A DNA stretch of 39,593 nt, from the NCBI GenBank assembly GCA_026225415.1, contig JAMFSS010000006.1, forward strand, positions 225,046 to 264,638, in the 5' to 3' direction. Below, piece after piece: positions 31,445 to 39,430 of this stretch. The notes beneath the pieces are model-generated. The model was not told where the DNA came from. It saw only the letters and a list, made by a program, of their open reading frames with translations, and did not search any database. Made by a program: the position numbers and the translations under genes. The first letter of the stretch is position 1, and each line of letters begins with the position of its first letter. Source of the DNA: Alphaproteobacteria bacterium (GTDB taxonomy: Bacteria > Pseudomonadota > Alphaproteobacteria > UBA9219).

Positions 31445-32428
31445 ATGCCAAATAAAAAATCCGCAAAAATTTCCTCCCTGACGCTGGCGCTCGGCCTTCT
31501 GTCTTTTTCCGTTCCGGCGCATGCCGGGTTTGAATGGGTCGCACCCAACACTAATGACAACGGCGCCTATCAGGCGCCGGTTGTCATCTCCCCGCCCATG
31601 GGAAATTACCTGCCAGCACCTGCGCCCGTCGCAACGGCGGCACCCGAAATCATCTCGCCCGTCATCATCACCGGCGGCAACGCGCCTGCGCCTTCCGCTC
31701 CGGCGGCAACGGTTCCTGTGCATATATTGCCAACACCTCCAACGTCTTCGCCTTCAACGCCTTCGCTCTCCACCGCAACCATCAGCGTGTCAAACAACGC
31801 CCCCGCGGATAAAGTCAGCGGTTTCGGCTCGTCCATTCCGCTCGCGCTGGCATTGCACCAAATTCTGCCCACCGACTATGGCTCGTCGATCGAACCGGAT
31901 GTCGATATGAACACGCTTGTCTCCTACAAAGGCGGCAAACCTTGGCGCGACACGCTGCGCGATGCTTTAGCGCCTGCGGGGCTTTCGGCGCATGAAGAAG
32001 GCACCATTGTGGTCGTAAGCCACGGCGCATCGGCCACAACCACGGCTGAAAAAGCCGCGCCTGTCTTATTGCCAATCGAATCCACGCAAACCATCTCGCG
32101 CGCCCCCGTCATTATGACGACCGGCGGTGATGCCAGTTTTGCGGCGCCGGTTGCCGACAATTGGTCGGCGCAACGCGGCGATACTTTGCACAAGGTTCTG
32201 ACCGAATGGTGCCGCCGCGCGGGTGTCGAACTGCAATGGCAGGCCGAATATGATTATCCGGTCGAAGCATCGGCGCATTTCACCAATGGCTTTGAAGATT
32301 CAGTGCGTAATTTGCTGGCCGGCTTTGATGCGGCGCGTCCGCAACCGATCGGCGAGCTTCATACCAATTCCAATGCAGGGCAAATGGTTTTGGTTGTGCA
32401 GGCGCGCGGCAATAATTACTCGAACTAA
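31445..32428 (+). CDS. pilL: PilL-like / TcpQ-domain periplasmic protein
   Basis: 327 residues with a signal peptide (LTLALGLLSFSVPAHA). A Pro/Ala/Ser-rich linker (about 40-120) is followed by a first N0/STN-like unit (about 125-200, LALHQILPTDYGSSIEPDVD) and a C-terminal TcpQ/PilL-type domain (about 235-327, RGDTLHKVLTEWCRRAGVEL). In R64 and Vibrio TCP systems PilL/TcpQ is needed to place or stabilise the secretin in the outer membrane. It lies directly before pilN and is coupled to it by a TAATG overlap. The gene name follows the R64 order L-N-O-P-Q-R; only the C-terminal part resembles the family clearly. Confidence 0.75.
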   Translation: MPNKKSAKISSLTLALGLLSFSVPAHAGFEWVAPNTNDNGAYQAPVVISPPMGNYLPAPAPVATAAPEIISPVIITGGNAPAPSAPAATVPVHILPTPPTSSPSTPSLSTATISVSNNAPADKVSGFGSSIPLALALHQILPTDYGSSIEPDVDMNTLVSYKGGKPWRDTLRDALAPAGLSAHEEGTIVVVSHGASATTTAEKAAPVLLPIESTQTISRAPVIMTTGGDASFAAPVADNWSAQRGDTLHKVLTEWCRRAGVELQWQAEYDYPVEASAHFTNGFEDSVRNLLAGFDAARPQPIGELHTNSNAGQMVLVVQARGNNYSN

Positions 32429-34329
32429 TGGAGATTGAGATGCCGTTTTTAGATTCCGTCAACTTGAAAAAACGAAAAAGTTTTTCGTCGCCCTTGCACA
32501 GTTTTTTTGGTCTTTGCGCTAAGGCGACGAAAAACTTTTTCGTTTTTTCAAGCGGACGGTTGTCACAAACCCCGCGCGCGGGAAAGTTAAATTTACCCGC
32601 ACGCGGGGCGGGTCGTTTGGCGGTCTGCGCGCTTGTCGTGGGCGCCACATTCGCCCTGCTGGGTTGCGATATAACCGACAATACGCGCAAGGATATCGAT
32701 AAAAGCGCCGATGAGGCCAAACAAACATTATCCAATGCCGAAAAACCCACCGTGCAAAAAGGTGTCGATTATAATCCTTTGACGGTATCGAACAAAGTAT
32801 GGGGCGGTAACGCGGCGTTGCGCATGCAGCGCGGCATGCCTTTGCCCGAACGTTTCGAATCGCCGCGCGGCGTCACGCTGGTGTCTTCCGACCCCATGTC
32901 GCTTAACGCCATTGCCACGGCGATAGCTTCGCAAACAGGCATCCCCGTGCGCCTCAGCGCCTTATCGATGCCCGGCAAAACGGTAACGTCATCGGCAACT
33001 TCTACGACGCCTTCCACCCCATCAACGCCCGCGCCTACTTCTTCTTCGGCATCCAGCGGCTTTACACCCGCCGCAAGCAGCGCCGCAAACTCGCCCGACA
33101 TGCCTATCTCCTACGAAGGCCCGTTGTCCGGTTTGCTGGACAGGGCTTCCGCCTATTTCGGTGTGACATGGCATTATAACGGCTCGACCATTTCCATCTC
33201 GCGTTACGAAACACGTGTGTTTTCGATTGAAGCCTTGCCCGGCACACAACAATCTTCCTCCTCCTTCTCCGGAAGCGGCAGCAGCGGAAGCGGAGGCAGC
33301 AGCAGCAGCGGTTCTTCCGGATCCTCATCGGCAGGCGGCGGTGCCACGGCGAGCAACGCGCTCGATCAGGAAGGCAAAGAAACCATCGATTTCAAATATT
33401 GGGATGAACTAACGGCGGTTCTCAATTCCATGCTCGGCGGCCAGGGTACGGTCGTCGTTTCACCGACAATGGGCACCGTAACGGTCACGACGACCGGCGA
33501 TGTCATGTCAACGGTGGCCGATTATTTGTCCAAAGAAAACAAAAACATGTCGCGGCAAATCGCGATCAATGTGCAGATTTACAGCGTCAATCTGGGCCAA
33601 AGCGAAGATTTCGATGTCGCCTTCACCGGCTTCTTGCATAATATCGAAAAATTCTCAGGGTTAACTTATGCGTCGGCAGCGGCCCCTACGCTTGCCAACA
33701 CAAACCTTGCCTCAAGCGCCCTTGGCACGCTCGGCATCGCCATCCTCAACAGCCCGACCGATCCAACAGCGCATGCGGGCGATGTGTTCAATGCTTTGTC
33801 GACATTGGGCGACACCAGTACGATTGCGCAATTCCCGATGACAACCTTGAACAATCATCCTGTCTCGCGTCTTGTCGGCAAACAAACCAGTTATGTGTCG
33901 ACCGTCAACTCGCTGACAACCACGAACACAGCCAGCACAACATCGATCACGCCGACTGTGTCGACGTTGCAAACCGGCTTCACGATCCAATTGACGCCGC
34001 GCTTGCTGGATGATGGCCGCATCTTGCTGCAATACGCGCTCAGCCAGAATGATCTGCAATCCTTGCAAACAGCGACTTACAGCGGTGCCCAAATCACCTT
34101 GCCGGTTATCAATAACCGCGTCTTCGACCAACAATCCATGTTGCGTTCCGGCCAAACCCTGATGATCGGCGGCGTGGATCAACAAGACACGGCGCAGAAT
34201 AAACAAGGCGTCGGCGCGCCCGATTTCTATGGGCTTGGCGGCGGCACCTCCAGCAACGGCAACCATTTCATGATGTTTATTTCCATCACGCCCCAGGTTC
34301 TCGATGTCGCGGGCGGGGAGCAGAACTAA
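32428..34329 (+). CDS. pilN: Type IVb pilus secretin lipoprotein PilN
   Basis: 633 residues. A hydrophobic segment with lipobox ALLGC is at about residues 66-84. Then come the PilN-type MQRGMPLPERFES, a Ser/Thr/Pro linker, an N-domain (GPLSGLLDRASAYFGVTWHY), a Ser/Gly-rich spacer (about 272-305) and the secretin domain (FTIQLTPRLLDDGRILLQYA, then LRSGQTLMIGG). It forms the outer-membrane pore for the pilus. The first 63 residues are abnormal: they are encoded by two palindromes (32463-32552 and 32570-32608). Without them, a TTG at 32617 would start a 570-residue protein. ATG 32428 is kept because it overlaps the pilL stop as TAATG. Confidence 0.9.
   Translation: MEIEMPFLDSVNLKKRKSFSSPLHSFFGLCAKATKNFFVFSSGRLSQTPRAGKLNLPARGAGRLAVCALVVGATFALLGCDITDNTRKDIDKSADEAKQTLSNAEKPTVQKGVDYNPLTVSNKVWGGNAALRMQRGMPLPERFESPRGVTLVSSDPMSLNAIATAIASQTGIPVRLSALSMPGKTVTSSATSTTPSTPSTPAPTSSSASSGFTPAASSAANSPDMPISYEGPLSGLLDRASAYFGVTWHYNGSTISISRYETRVFSIEALPGTQQSSSSFSGSGSSGSGGSSSSGSSGSSSAGGGATASNALDQEGKETIDFKYWDELTAVLNSMLGGQGTVVVSPTMGTVTVTTTGDVMSTVADYLSKENKNMSRQIAINVQIYSVNLGQSEDFDVAFTGFLHNIEKFSGLTYASAAAPTLANTNLASSALGTLGIAILNSPTDPTAHAGDVFNALSTLGDTSTIAQFPMTTLNNHPVSRLVGKQTSYVSTVNSLTTTNTASTTSITPTVSTLQTGFTIQLTPRLLDDGRILLQYALSQNDLQSLQTATYSGAQITLPVINNRVFDQQSMLRSGQTLMIGGVDQQDTAQNKQGVGAPDFYGLGGGTSSNGNHFMMFISITPQVLDVAGGEQN
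32463..32552. repeat. Perfect 30-30-30 inverted repeat inside the pilN 5' end
   Basis: A 30-base arm (32463-32492), a 30-base loop and the exact reverse-complement arm (32523-32552). Each arm also contains a near-palindrome, ACGAAAAAGTTTTTCGT. The total of 90 bases is exactly 30 codons and keeps the pilN frame open. It encodes a Lys/Arg/Phe/Ser-rich peptide (KKRKSFSSP to TKNFFVFSS) ahead of the lipoprotein signal. This recalls palindromic elements that insert in frame into genes of Rickettsia and relatives. Confidence 0.8.
32570..32608. repeat. GC-rich palindrome before the pilN lipoprotein signal
   Basis: CCCCGCGCGCGGG (32570-32582) and CCCGCACGCGGGG (32596-32608) pair over 13 bases with one mismatch. 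The 13-base A/T-rich loop itself contains TAAATTTA. It lies 17 bases after the 90-base inverted repeat and 8 bases before a possible TTG start (32617). Confidence 0.65.
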
Positions 34330-35579
34330 TGGCGGCAGGTACAGCCACGATCGGCGGACGTCAATACGCCGTAGGGCTGTATTGGGAAAACAGCCCCGGT
34401 GGCGGTCGTGTCACGCAAATCGCCAAAGAAGCGGCCAAACAACCGGGCACCCAGGCGGAATTTTACGTTGTCCGCCCCGGCAATAATGACGGGCGCGTGG
34501 CGCAATTCGGCCTGTGTTCCAGCGAGGCAGGACAAAAAGCCGGCATGCCCGCCTTGGCGGGCTGTCTCGCCAATCAGGTTCCGGGTTCATGGGTAGGGGC
34601 GTTCCGTCTTTCCGAAGGCGTCATCGTCACCGTGGTGCGCGATGATCTGATCGTGCCGGACGGCGATGTTTTTTTTCAGGACGAAGCCGAAGCGCGTGAT
34701 CGTCTGATTCAGGAAATCGGTTTTGGTGGTTTGCAAACCACCTATGCGCCTGAATCCTGGTCGATACCCGGCGCGGATACCATTCCGCTCACGCTGTTGC
34801 TGAATAACCGTCAGGACATCAAGCTTCAACAAGTCTCGATACCCAAAAAAGTCAAAATCATCGCCGCCAGCGTCGGCTTGTTGCTGATCGTCCTTGTGGG
34901 CGGCGTCTGGTATTGGCAGGCGCAAGAGGCCGAAGAAGAAGCCCGGGCCGCAGCCGCTGCGGCACTGGCGCATCCCTCGCCGATGTCCCTTTTTCAAGAC
35001 AATAAACCGCCCGAACCCAAATATGTCCGCGTCTGGGAAAACGAACCCCAACCGATGGCCGCTATCGAAGCCTGCCGCGCCGGTTTATCGTCCATACCCG
35101 CAGCGGTTGCGGGCTGGAAAATATCCGGCGTCAAATGCGCGAAATCAAACATGGCCGTGACATGGGCGTTTGATAAAGGCATGGCCACCATCCCCGAAGG
35201 CGCGCAACTGGATGATGTGGGCAAAACAGCCAGCAAATCCATAGGTTTGACCGTCCTGCCCGCGCGGGGCGCCGAAACGTTGCTCGACCCCACCGATGTT
35301 CTGAAACGCTATCTGGCTCAAAACTGGGGCGTAGGTCTGTCCGTGGCTGCCGATGATCCCCCGCCACCACCGCCACCCGGCTACACCGGCGAATGGCATC
35401 CGCCACCCCCGCCATGGGTTAAGCGTTCCTTTACCCTTACAGTGCCAGAATTGCCTTCGACCCTGGCGGAATATTTCGACGGATTGCCGGGGCTTATCGT
35501 CAACAGCATTTCTCTTGCTCCGGCCGGCGTCGGCGGAACATGGTCAATCGAAGGGATTATCTATGAGAATCGCAAATAA
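34329..35579 (+). CDS. pilO: Type IVb pilus biogenesis protein PilO (PilO2 family)
   Basis: 416 residues. The N-terminal cytoplasmic domain (1-170) begins with GGRQYAVGLYWENSPGG and has the PilO2 segment VVRDDLIVPDGDVFFQDE. One membrane helix follows (about 176-198, VKIIAASVGLLLIVLVGGVW). The periplasmic part contains two polyproline stretches (about 340-362, PPPPPPPGYTGEWHPPPPPW). PilO links the inner-membrane platform to the secretin in R64-type pili. It starts on the last base of the pilN stop (TAATG) and overlaps pilP by 17 bases. Length and motifs are normal. Confidence 0.87.
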   Translation: MAAGTATIGGRQYAVGLYWENSPGGGRVTQIAKEAAKQPGTQAEFYVVRPGNNDGRVAQFGLCSSEAGQKAGMPALAGCLANQVPGSWVGAFRLSEGVIVTVVRDDLIVPDGDVFFQDEAEARDRLIQEIGFGGLQTTYAPESWSIPGADTIPLTLLLNNRQDIKLQQVSIPKKVKIIAASVGLLLIVLVGGVWYWQAQEAEEEARAAAAAALAHPSPMSLFQDNKPPEPKYVRVWENEPQPMAAIEACRAGLSSIPAAVAGWKISGVKCAKSNMAVTWAFDKGMATIPEGAQLDDVGKTASKSIGLTVLPARGAETLLDPTDVLKRYLAQNWGVGLSVAADDPPPPPPPGYTGEWHPPPPPWVKRSFTLTVPELPSTLAEYFDGLPGLIVNSISLAPAGVGGTWSIEGIIYENRK

Positions 35580-36357
35580 ATCCTCCCTCACCGGCATCGT
35601 CCCTTCACTGGCGCGCGGTCTTTTGTGGGTCGCGCTTGGTCTTGCAACGCCGCTCACGGCGGCATGGGCTGATAATGCGCCTTTGCCAATTCCGCCGGCA
35701 CCTGCCCCAATCGCTCCGGGTGCAATGCCCGTTGCTATGCTTCCGCCCGGCGCTGCGGCGCCTCTCCCGGCCGCACCCGCCCTGCTACCGCCCGGTGGCG
35801 CCGCCGATATGACCAAAAACATCGCGACGCTGGAAGAAAAAGCAACCGACGGCGCCAAAGCGGCGCTTAAAAATCTTGACGGCACCGAACCCCTGACCCT
35901 GGATGATCTGAACCGCGCCCGCCAAACCGTGGCGCGCATCGATGCGATGATCGATATCGAAAAACGCCTCGGCGAACTTGAAAAATTGCGTGAAGCCAAA
36001 AACGGCGGCGGCTCATCCAATTTCGCGGGCGCCATTCCCGCCAGCGCGCTTACGCCGTTCGGCGGCAACAAAGGCTTTCCCAAAATGCCGGCTTTCCCCT
36101 CGGCACAGGAAATACCTGTTGTCATGCATGTGGCACCCGCCAAGCCTGAAATTTCACGCATCATTGGCGCGGACGGAAAATATGAAGCCGTCCTGAAAAT
36201 GTCCGACGGTGAAATGCGTTCTGTGCGGGTTGGCGATACGGTCAGCGGCGGTACGGTGCGCTGGATAACGGCCTCGGCCATCGGTCTGGATGAAAAAGGC
36301 CACACAGAAATCATCCATGTCAAAAATGTCGATATCGTAACCAGCGCGATACGGTAA
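35563..36357 (+). CDS. pilP: Type IV pilus biogenesis protein PilP
   Basis: 264 residues from ATG 35563, which has AAGGGA 7 bases upstream and yields a signal peptide (ARGLLWVALGLATPLTAAWA). A Pro/Ala-rich stretch is followed by a helical segment (about 85-145, NLDGTEPLTLDDLNRARQTV). The PilP C-terminal beta domain closes it (about 200-264, YEAVLKMSDGEMRSVRVGDT then GGTVRWITASAIGLDEKG). PilP is a periplasmic linker between inner-membrane PilO and the secretin. The longer in-frame extension to 35353 runs through pilO and is not real. The C-terminal domain resembles the end of DotF in this window. Confidence 0.82.
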   Translation: MRIANKSSLTGIVPSLARGLLWVALGLATPLTAAWADNAPLPIPPAPAPIAPGAMPVAMLPPGAAAPLPAAPALLPPGGAADMTKNIATLEEKATDGAKAALKNLDGTEPLTLDDLNRARQTVARIDAMIDIEKRLGELEKLREAKNGGGSSNFAGAIPASALTPFGGNKGFPKMPAFPSAQEIPVVMHVAPAKPEISRIIGADGKYEAVLKMSDGEMRSVRVGDTVSGGTVRWITASAIGLDEKGHTEIIHVKNVDIVTSAIR

Positions 36358-36367
36358 GAACAAACCC

Positions 36368-36394
36368 AAGGCCAAACAGCCTTTGTTATTTTTG
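36368..36394 (+). terminator. Weak hairpin with T-run between pilP and pilQ
   Basis: AAGGC / GCCTT form a 5-bp stem with a 6-base loop, followed by TTGTTATTTTTG. The stem is short, so it may cause partial termination or pausing inside the pil operon rather than a full stop. Confidence 0.35.
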
Positions 36395-36440
36395 CGGACA
36401 TAGCGCCAGTTAACCGCGACACAGGGTCAAGGAATTTATC

Positions 36441-38321
36441 GTGGTCAATTTCAATACGCTTTTTGGAAAAAAGGAAAAAGGACCGGCCAAACCCGAACCG
36501 GTCGGGTTGCCTGGTGATTCCAAAAAAACCACGGCTAAAAAAGCGGAAATAAAAGCGATACGCGAAGCCGCCGAAGCCGAAAGCCCCAAAGGGCAAACGC
36601 TTGCGCCCGTTATTGCCAAAGCGGCCGAAGCGCCGATTAAAATCCATGATGAAAACAGCACCCAGCTGGCATTCACAGGAACGGTTCTAACGGCGGCCGG
36701 CGAAGCGCTGAAAATTCCCGACGAAGCGCGCAACCTCTGCGCCCTTTTCGATAACGGCATGTGGCTGGTCAGCGCATCGCATCGCCGTTCGCCCCTGGTC
36801 ACCTCGGTTGAACAGGCGGCGCGCCGTCAGGGTTACCAAGTCGAACCGCCCCGCTATGTGACGCCGAATATTATTCTTCAGGCGTATTTGTATGCCGACC
36901 GCAAAGGCAACGCGTCGGTGTTCGACGAAAACGCCGTCCGCCGCCGCATCGTCGCGACATTGGAACAAGCCGTTCAAATGAACGCCAACGATATCCATAT
37001 CGAATCCGTCAATGGCCGCGCCACGGTGCAATATCGTATCGATGGTTCGCTGCGCCGACAGGATACCTGGACGCAACGCGAAGGCGAACAATTTTTGGCC
37101 GCAGTCTATTCGCACTCCATCGGCCAATCGGGCGCCACCGCCAATTGGCAGGAACCCCAAGCCGCGATGTTGACAGCAGACGCGCGCGGCAAGGAAATCA
37201 TCACGCTGCCCAAGGGCATCATCTCTGTGCGTTGCCAATGGGTGCCGTTGGCAAACGACGGGCGCTATCTCGATATGCGTCTGCAATACGACTCGGCGTA
37301 TTTGTTCGGCGAAAATTTCGTCATGGCCGATGTCGACTCGCTCGGTTTCTCGCAAGAACAATTAAAAGTCGTGCAATCCTTGCGTAACGCGCCGGGCGGT
37401 TTGCGCATCTTCTCCGGCCCCGTTAATCAGGGTAAAACCACCACGCTGCGCGTCGTGCTTAACCGGCGCATGGCCGAAACCGAAATGCGGCTTAACTGTT
37501 TGCTGATCGAAGATCCCGCCGAAGGCGGCGTTATCGGCGCGCGCCAGATCGGCGTTTCAGCATCGGTCAAAGACGACCAGCGCGAAAAAACATTCGCCGA
37601 AATCATGCGCTGCGCCCTGCGCCTCGATCCCGATATCGTCATGTTGGGCGAAGTGCGCGATTTACAAACCGCCAAATTCGCCTTCCGCCTCGCGCTTACG
37701 GGTCGCCAGGTTTACACAACGGGCCACGTTTATGCCGCGCTCGCCACGCCGAAACGTCTGCGCGATATCGGCATGGAACCTTATATCGTTTATGACCATC
37801 ACCTTGTGCGCGGCATGGCGTGCCAACGGTTGCTGCGTACCCTTTGCACCAATTGCCGCATCCCTTTGTCGGCGGCGGTCGAAGAATTCGGCCCCGTCAT
37901 GCGCGACCTTGCGCGGCGTGTCCGCGCCGGCCTTTCCATTCTGGATGCCCGCCGTAACAAAGCGTTCGTCGGCAAACCGATCATGGAGTGCGTCGCCGAA
38001 CCCGATCTTGCCAATGTTTATCTGGCCAACCCGCAAGGCTGCGCCAAATGTTATAAAGGCCGCGCGGGCCGGACCGTGGCCGCGGAAATCATCGAAACCG
38101 ATGCGAAGCTTATGGAACTTCTGCAAGACAACCGCGCCGAAGAAGCCGAAAATTACTGGCTGTCGCCCGCCGGATTAAACGGTGTGACAATGTTGTGGCG
38201 CGGCATGGAAAAAGTGCGCGGCGGCGAAGTCTCGCCCGACGATGCCGAATTCGAACTGGGCATTTTCGCGCGCGAACGCGATGTGATCGACGTTGAACAA
38301 AAACTGGGGCCGATGCGATGA
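36441..38321 (+). CDS. pilQ: Type IVb pilus assembly ATPase PilQ (GspE/PulE family)
   Basis: 626 residues. A basic, disordered N-terminus (1-70) is followed by an N-terminal domain, then the GspE core: DIHIESVNGRATVQYRIDGS (about 182-201), Walker A GPVNQGKT (about 326-333), Walker B region MLGEVRDLQTAKFA and the CTNC / CAKC zinc-binding pairs (about 472 and 534). The His-box position reads TTGHVYAA instead of the usual TTLHTN. It drives pilus assembly (R64 PilQ). GTG is the start codon, with AAGGA 8 bases upstream. Its TGA overlaps the pilR ATG. Confidence 0.92.
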   Translation: MVNFNTLFGKKEKGPAKPEPVGLPGDSKKTTAKKAEIKAIREAAEAESPKGQTLAPVIAKAAEAPIKIHDENSTQLAFTGTVLTAAGEALKIPDEARNLCALFDNGMWLVSASHRRSPLVTSVEQAARRQGYQVEPPRYVTPNIILQAYLYADRKGNASVFDENAVRRRIVATLEQAVQMNANDIHIESVNGRATVQYRIDGSLRRQDTWTQREGEQFLAAVYSHSIGQSGATANWQEPQAAMLTADARGKEIITLPKGIISVRCQWVPLANDGRYLDMRLQYDSAYLFGENFVMADVDSLGFSQEQLKVVQSLRNAPGGLRIFSGPVNQGKTTTLRVVLNRRMAETEMRLNCLLIEDPAEGGVIGARQIGVSASVKDDQREKTFAEIMRCALRLDPDIVMLGEVRDLQTAKFAFRLALTGRQVYTTGHVYAALATPKRLRDIGMEPYIVYDHHLVRGMACQRLLRTLCTNCRIPLSAAVEEFGPVMRDLARRVRAGLSILDARRNKAFVGKPIMECVAEPDLANVYLANPQGCAKCYKGRAGRTVAAEIIETDAKLMELLQDNRAEEAENYWLSPAGLNGVTMLWRGMEKVRGGEVSPDDAEFELGIFARERDVIDVEQKLGPMR

Positions 38322-39430
38322 GCGAATTCGACCAAAAATTCCGAAAATTTCAAGCTGATTTTGTCCGGATACAATTCCGCTCCAACCGGAAAAACCGCTT
38401 CCGCATCTACCGCAAGCTGGAAGGCATGTTGAAAACCAACGAAGCCTTGTCGCGCGCGCTTGACCGCCTGTACCAAAACGTCACCGAAATGGGCAAATTC
38501 CCCAACAAACCGGCGGCGGTTGCCTTGCGCGAATGGTTTTTAAAAGACCGCGCGGGCGTTACCTTGTCCCAGGCGATGGAAGGCTGGGTACCGGCGGGCG
38601 AACTTTACATGATCCGCGCGGGCGAAGAATCCGGCACGCTGGCCAAGGCGCTCCGCTCGATTCAGGAAATGGGCGAACGCAGCAAGGAAATGAAGGCCGC
38701 GGTGTCCTACGCCGTCGGCTATCCTATTTTCATGTTCATGCTTGTCGGTTTCGTTATCTATAGTTTCGGCATCAACCTTATCGCCAATATGCGCATGAAC
38801 GCGCCCCCCAGCGCTGTCAAGGCGATGGGCGCCGTCGTGCCATTTTCCGACTTTATCGCCGCATGGGGCCTTTATATCGTCGCGGCCATTATTGTCTTCT
38901 TCACCTTCATCGCCGTTACCTTGCCTTACTGGCGCGGCAATCTGCGCATCAAATGCGATATGTATCCGCCCTGGTCATGGTACCGCGTCATGCAGGGCAG
39001 CGGTTTCATGCTGGGCATGTCGTCCTTGCTGGGCGCACAGGTGCCGCTCAAACGCTCCATGGAAATTATGGAAGAACAAGGCAAGCCGTGGATCAAAGAA
39101 CGCATCAACGCGGCGCGCCAACGCGTTTTGCGCGGCAGCAATCTGGGCGAAGCGTTACGCCTCACGAAAATGAACTTTCCCGATCCGACCGTGGCGGTCG
39201 ATCTTGAAATTCTGTCCGAACGCGCCGATGTCGGCCTGGTGATGGAAGAAGTCACCAATGAATGGATGCGCGACCAGATCGATGCGATGAAGGTGCAAGC
39301 CATCCTGATCCGCAATGTCGGCATGGCCGTGGTCGGCGGCCTTATCGCCTGGGTCATGATGTCGATCTTCGCGGTGGTCGGCGAATTGACCAAGGGCGGG
39401 CAGAGCAACGGCCTGGGCACCGGCCAGTAA
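38318..39430 (+). CDS. pilR: Type IVb pilus inner-membrane platform protein PilR (GspF family)
   Basis: 370 residues with the GspF layout: a cytoplasmic helical domain, a membrane helix pair (about 130-155, VGYPIFMFMLVGFVIYSFGI, and 175-207, LYIVAAIIVFFTFIAV), a second cytoplasmic domain (MLGMSSLLGAQVPLKRSMEI) and a last helix (about 330-355, AVVGGLIAWVMMSIFAVVGEL). It anchors the ATPase and the growing pilus (R64 PilR). It is translationally coupled to pilQ (ATGA overlap). It is the last gene in the window; a pilin gene (pilS) would be expected next, after the repeat copy that follows. Confidence 0.92.
   Translation: MSEFDQKFRKFQADFVRIQFRSNRKNRFRIYRKLEGMLKTNEALSRALDRLYQNVTEMGKFPNKPAAVALREWFLKDRAGVTLSQAMEGWVPAGELYMIRAGEESGTLAKALRSIQEMGERSKEMKAAVSYAVGYPIFMFMLVGFVIYSFGINLIANMRMNAPPSAVKAMGAVVPFSDFIAAWGLYIVAAIIVFFTFIAVTLPYWRGNLRIKCDMYPPWSWYRVMQGSGFMLGMSSLLGAQVPLKRSMEIMEEQGKPWIKERINAARQRVLRGSNLGEALRLTKMNFPDPTVAVDLEILSERADVGLVMEEVTNEWMRDQIDAMKVQAILIRNVGMAVVGGLIAWVMMSIFAVVGELTKGGQSNGLGTGQ

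Follow-up and report, generated by a model that had tools for sequence, protein, structure and literature searches.

What is a long, perfect palindrome doing in the reading frame of a pilus secretin gene, shortly ahead of the part that encodes the signal peptide? In the stretch of 39,593 nucleotides analysed here (hereafter the window), bases 32463–32492 and 32523–32552 of the forward strand are exact reverse complements, 30 bases each with a 30-base loop between them, as claimed in an earlier note on this DNA, which had described a perfect 90-base inverted repeat in the pilN frame. From base composition, such an inverted repeat is expected by chance about 4e-12 times per window. When mismatches are allowed, the arms grow to 32456–32500 and 32515–32559. 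The RNA of bases 32440–32620 has a predicted fold of −92.3 kcal/mol (z = −8.9), and none of 200 shuffled sequences was equally low. A search against Rfam at gathering thresholds gave no RNA family match anywhere in the window.

The gene concerned, pilN (32440–34329, forward strand), encodes a type IVB pilus secretin lipoprotein with Secretin and Secretin_N_2 domains (Pfam), whose best family is TIGR02520 PilN at 278 bits, under the curated cut-off of 287.65. Genes around it encode TcpQ, PilO, T2SSE and T2SSF domains. This type IVB pilus cluster (31445–39430) adjoins a Dot/Icm-like type IVB secretion set (window bases 215–30663) that includes DotH/IcmK, a TrbI-domain protein, DotA/TraY, DotD and a DotB-like ATPase, the genome being presumably of the Micavibrio group. 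Immediately upstream of pilN, a pilus gene with a TcpQ domain (31445–32428, forward strand) has a stop codon that ends one base before a GGAG ribosome-binding site (32430–32433, forward strand), which lies six bases ahead of ATG 32440. The pilN start had been described as coupled to this gene, and an ATG at 32428 does overlap the upstream stop, but agreement with the orthologues points to ATG 32440 and its GGAG. From ATG 32440 (or 32428) the frame is open up to the stop ending at 34329, so that the claim of an open frame through this palindrome and a second one behind it holds. The hydrophobic part and lipobox of the PilN signal (AVCALVVGATFALLG-C; 32620–32667, forward strand) were aligned to those of orthologues by eye.

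The palindrome in pilN belongs to a repeat family. The earlier note had proposed a whole-genome search for the 90-base unit, and searches here turned up another copy in the genome and dozens in relatives. In the window's own 2.02-Mb genome, blastn found one other full-length copy, 80% identical and in opposite orientation, at the 5′ end of dapF. Across 59 genomes, blastn (E ≤ 0.01) gave matches to the element in nine, own included, though in one of them (G040, from another family) just 25 bases match. With a covariance model made from 27 copies, 11 of the 59 gave matches, again with the window's own among them and with one marginal case (G002, E 0.0097); at E ≤ 1e-6, matches came from 10 of the order's 33 genomes, own included. 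Outside the order, 26 genomes of the same class gave no model match under stricter filters, which lose weak matches. In a collection of genome contigs, a stricter DNA pattern retrieved 33 stretches, 21 from two metagenome-assembled genomes (MAGs) labelled Micavibrio and the other 12 from four MAGs that carry the label Alphaproteobacteria bacterium or uncultured proteobacterium. The element was not found in viral contigs with an exact gapped pattern, nor in plasmids or phages with blastn (E ≤ 1e-3). The family appears in these data to be confined to Micavibrio-type alphaproteobacteria, the group to which, going by these matches, the window's genome would itself belong.

The site counts that follow refer to 88 listed sites in ten genomes, derived from 170 model matches by merging strands and dropping the weak matches in L051 and L057; further copies exist. 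In one genome, G021, an end of the element comes within about 60 bases of the contig's own end on 17 contigs (C20, C21, C29, C39, C54, C56, C60, C119, C124, C129, C143, C145, C158, C165, C168, C183 and C185), so the repeat probably breaks the assembly and its copy number there is probably underestimated.

The family has well-defined ends. Among 46 copies with flanks (four truncated or contig-end copies, L051, L057, L061 and L047, having been left out, and two short ones, L018 and L060, left out earlier), conservation drops outside a terminal TA on both sides. The left boundary reads TATACT[A]CGTC... and the right boundary ...GACGGACTATA, that is, terminal inverted repeats with TA outermost, and the inverted ends at both sides follow TATA[C/G]T[A/C]CGTC[AA/CG]CTTGAAAACCCG. 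Model spans are 116–123 bases at 79 of the 88 listed sites, the other nine being of odd length; shorter copies that keep both ends measure 68, 69, 80 and 95 bases, and longer ones 135–171. Two of the long variants (L184:1501–1668 and L185:1501–1671, both in G006) share an additional palindrome inside the loop, as though a second repeat were nested within the element. Beside copy L021 (in the right flank of 1494–1610), and after base 170 of L219 beside a truncated copy, lie sequences resembling short REPs of the CGTC type. In pilN, the element is about 116 bases long (32450–32565, forward strand) and is bounded by the positions of the two terminal TAs of the family consensus, although its terminal bases are degenerate, reading TAGATT and TTGTCA against TATACT and ACTATA in the family.

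Matched changes preserve the pairing between the arms. In the 27 selected copies of one alignment (A2; a second alignment, A3, was not counted), changes on both sides occur at 10 of 36 pairs and in 33 of 948 cells, and none of 500 shuffles was as high. When the partners are slid against each other, paired cells fall from 92.6%, a percentage that leans upwards because the structure was derived from the same 27 copies, to at most 56%, and double-changed cells fall to at most 12. A slide of −1 also yields 10 double-changed pairs, though with 12 cells against 33.

An exact search with the end pattern in four genomes, one of them fragmented, revealed no larger or transposase-bearing element with these ends. 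In G006, G009 and G018 every exact end match is a short copy or a remnant, and among 18 further ends in G021, 17 are no more than about 60 bases from where a contig stops and one is a remnant beside another repeat; a larger autonomous element may be hidden at such contig ends. As no autonomous partner was found, we call the family MITE-like and not a proven MITE.

Comparison with orthologues points to an insertion into pilN. Matches to pilN were found in 29 of 32 genomes, own included, and the 5′ end was read in ten orthologues (L068, L071 and the remainder are outside this count). All ten lack the element at this end, which is the outcome that the earlier note had looked for in relatives. In G009, G006, G002 and G001, the start codon lies 48 bases (16 codons) before the codon matching 32620, and a ribosome site occupies the corresponding place (GGAG in G009, G001 and G002; GGGG in G006). 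In the window, the same distance, from ATG 32440 to 32620, is 180 bases (60 codons), in frame. The palindromes had been credited with about 60 added residues; an in-frame extension is indeed present, but it amounts to 44 codons beyond the four orthologues, about 38 of them from the element and six in the region of the second palindrome. If the TA is a duplicated target, the net insertion would be 114 bases (38 codons). TA is the target of ERIC elements. Removing 114 bases in silico leaves an ordinary-looking lipoprotein signal, MPFLQTPRAGKLNLPARGAGRL-AVCALVVGATFALLGC, with a basic n-region of 22 codons before AVCALVVGATFALLGC, six codons above the four relatives. We infer the TA duplication and the exact ends of the insertion from the ends of the family, those of this copy being degenerate. 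A net length divisible by three is found at just 12 of the 79 full-length listed sites, both copies of this genome included, so an insertion that kept the frame needed a rarer length variant.

The second, GC-rich palindrome that had been reported to follow the first is present at 32570–32608 (forward strand). Its fold is stable (−28.2 kcal/mol, z = −4.5, with none of 200 shuffles equally low), and it is a single-copy sequence outside the element family. We considered it as a dispersed repeat and rejected the idea: across 23 genomes, the one good match was to its own place, and the other listed matches were short (14–26 bases, E 0.01 to 1).

Do copies of the element generally lie in genes? Measured against ORFs of at least 150 codons, 57 of the 88 listed sites touch none, 19 share part of their length with one and 12 are wholly contained in one, and among these 12 only the pilN copy is clearly in a gene, the dapF copy being ambiguous. 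At L012, L029 and L194 a Pfam domain begins past the element; the ORFs at L016, L023, L041, L160, L189 and L215 have no Pfam domain; and L213, which a mechanical count places inside a long ORF, lies on our reading between rpoH-like and rluD-like frames. A Pfam scan of 13 ORFs that run through copies found a domain in five, always starting past the element (MlaC, pseudouridine synthase with S4, YceD, ATP synthase gamma and CobT), and none in the other eight. Twenty sites have a stop-free frame with at least 20 codons on each side; ten of these were among the ORFs scanned, and pilN and dapF are among the other ten (antisense frame listed). Several elements lie directly ahead of likely start codons, for example those of atpG, cobT, mlaC-like and pseudouridine synthase genes. 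One such copy from G009 (L197, 1501–1619) terminates at the ATG of the gene for the ATP synthase gamma subunit, and the element's end may supply the ribosome site of that gene. At the genome's other copy, a frame is open from the element into dapF, whose identity rests on a profile match. Fourteen dapF loci were read, 12 of them with the start region (own included), and the 11 relatives lack the element; by eye, their dapF genes seem to start about 5–14 codons before KMHGLGND. Here dapF may start at a GTG shortly before KMHGLGND, with the element then upstream, or at an ATG in the element's end.

These positions bear on the comparison with Rickettsia that the earlier note had drawn. A selfish repeat adapted to spread in frame within genes, as a protein-coding element of the Rickettsia type, would fit a dispersed palindrome that lies in frame in pilN and from whose other copy an open frame leads into dapF. 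It would, however, be expected in genes, where the pilN copy stands alone as a clear case. Further, after 14 near-identical copies were removed from 78, the three mostly open frames were stop-free in 29, 20 and 16 of the remaining 64 copies, against 23.9, 21.8 and 12.6 expected from shuffled loops. Two of the three slightly exceed expectation, but frames are open about as often as in shuffled loops, and these 64 copies give no clear sign of coding selection on the element. We therefore regard this explanation as highly improbable. What stands of the earlier comparison is a dispersed palindrome in frame in pilN; the family as a whole sits mostly outside ORFs, and its frames are open at about chance level.

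Might the palindrome instead be leader RNA only, translation having moved downstream to TTG 32560 or TTG 32617, the latter proposed earlier as the true start? The gene-adjacent copies just described do precede likely native starts, and the REP literature cautions that a repeat found at a predicted N-terminus may often lie outside the gene (PMC3733652). Against this, a ribosome site and ATG matching those of the orthologues lie upstream of the element, and the frame from ATG 32440 is open. A start at TTG 32617 would leave no basic residue ahead of the hydrophobic part of the signal, and TTG 32560 has just GGACGG, immediately adjacent, as a ribosome site, so that a restart at either is less likely; we consider leader RNA an unlikely explanation, TTG 32617 included. 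Less probable still is a hairpin selected for control of pilN translation or mRNA stability. The pilN copy ranks fifth in forward-strand stability among the 88 listed sites (−62.5 kcal/mol), matched changes keep pairing across the family, and the GGAG and ATG lie outside the element's stem, which begins about 12–16 bases from the A of ATG 32440 (23 for the perfect core), though the predicted fold draws both into a separate, weak upstream hairpin. Yet the element's absence from the ten orthologues read speaks against a conserved control of pilN, and pairing across the family is equally explained by the needs of a mobile element or by copying. Finally, library preparation can give rise to perfect inverted repeats, and the palindrome might be a fold-back chimera of the assembly; with a diverged copy (80% identical) elsewhere in the same assembly and tens of copies in independent assemblies, the chance of such an artefact is negligible.

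The best explanation, to which we assign a probability of about three in four, is that a non-autonomous, MITE-like element of about 116 bases inserted into pilN and is translated through from ATG 32440. The element would have entered at a TA a few codons past the pilN start, and with the TA duplicated its net 114 bases, a multiple of three with one stop-free frame, would leave the gene open. Start signals common to the orthologues suggest that ribosomes begin at ATG 32440 and read on through the palindrome, so that the element probably lengthens PilN at its front by about 38 amino acids. In the precursor, these extra residues would fall in the basic n-region, leaving the hydrophobic part and lipobox intact, and cleavage of the signal peptide at the lipobox cysteine would take the extra stretch away, with the mature secretin unchanged. 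The mRNA hairpin may lower or tune pilN expression. A perfect 30-bp stem is expected to be a good substrate for RNase III, which could cut the pilN message between the start codon and the body of the gene unless translation melts the stem. It is also conceivable, if decidedly doubtful, that the translated pilN palindrome has two roles at once, as a peptide in the signal n-region and, in the mRNA, as an unbroken 30-bp hairpin that controls how much pilus is made, its arms changing together while the frame is kept. If true, pilN would provide a protein-coding palindrome held under two constraints and independent of those of Rickettsia, its pairing kept by arm-to-arm correction or by selection.

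The family invites comparison with several known systems. ERIC (RU-1), RU-2 and RU-3 are likewise MITE-like repeats of about 100–170 bp, mostly intergenic and in many copies, and some ERIC-type copies are described in frame in annotated genes, including loci with predicted signal peptides (PMC2759123; PMC10969869). In contrast to ERIC, with which we compared it by description, the present family has Micavibrio-type alphaproteobacteria as hosts and a pilN copy with 30 perfect core pairs. Rickettsia palindromic elements (RPEs) are likewise alphaproteobacterial palindromic repeats in frame in host proteins; N-terminal cases and the in vivo expression of RPE-1-decorated proteins are reported (PMC3733652), as are a high frequency in genes and conserved peptides (PMC10969869). 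Here, there is one clear in-gene case among the 88 listed sites, with the dapF copy ambiguous, and no clear excess of open frames, so it is by behaviour that the two are told apart.

CGTC-tagged REPs, of which a family, CGTC-1, is reported in Micavibrio aeruginosavorus, are also palindromic and alphaproteobacterial, with no dedicated transposase known (PMC3733652). They have an unpaired CGTC tag, a stem of 8–9 bp, a loop of 4–5 bases and a short CCA-like tail (PMC3733652), whereas in our unit of about 116 bases the CGTC forms part of a long stem. Of 27 copies folded into a structure with 36 pairs, 21 have the C paired and all 27 the GTC, an anatomy that sets the family apart from these REPs. 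QMITE1 and QMITE2 of Coxiella burnetii are palindromic MITEs too, some of them in frame (PMC5896051), in an unrelated host and likened here by description. In the open PMC literature found on Micavibrio, Micavibrionales or alphaproteobacterial palindromic MITEs, no title or opening of an abstract among the papers listed describes the present family. It is MITE-like (ERIC-like), a newly found example of a known sort of small mobile DNA.

For these bacteria, the finding adds a MITE-like family to a lineage in which the genome of M. aeruginosavorus ARL-13 was described as lacking mobile elements, transposons and insertion sequences among them (PMC3189940). It also offers, in a form open to experiment, one way in which a gene may survive the entry of a palindrome: through a signal-peptide n-region, which probably tolerates extra length and whose product is probably cut away. 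Beyond this locus, the arm-matched changes across the family raise the question of how such palindromes keep their symmetry.
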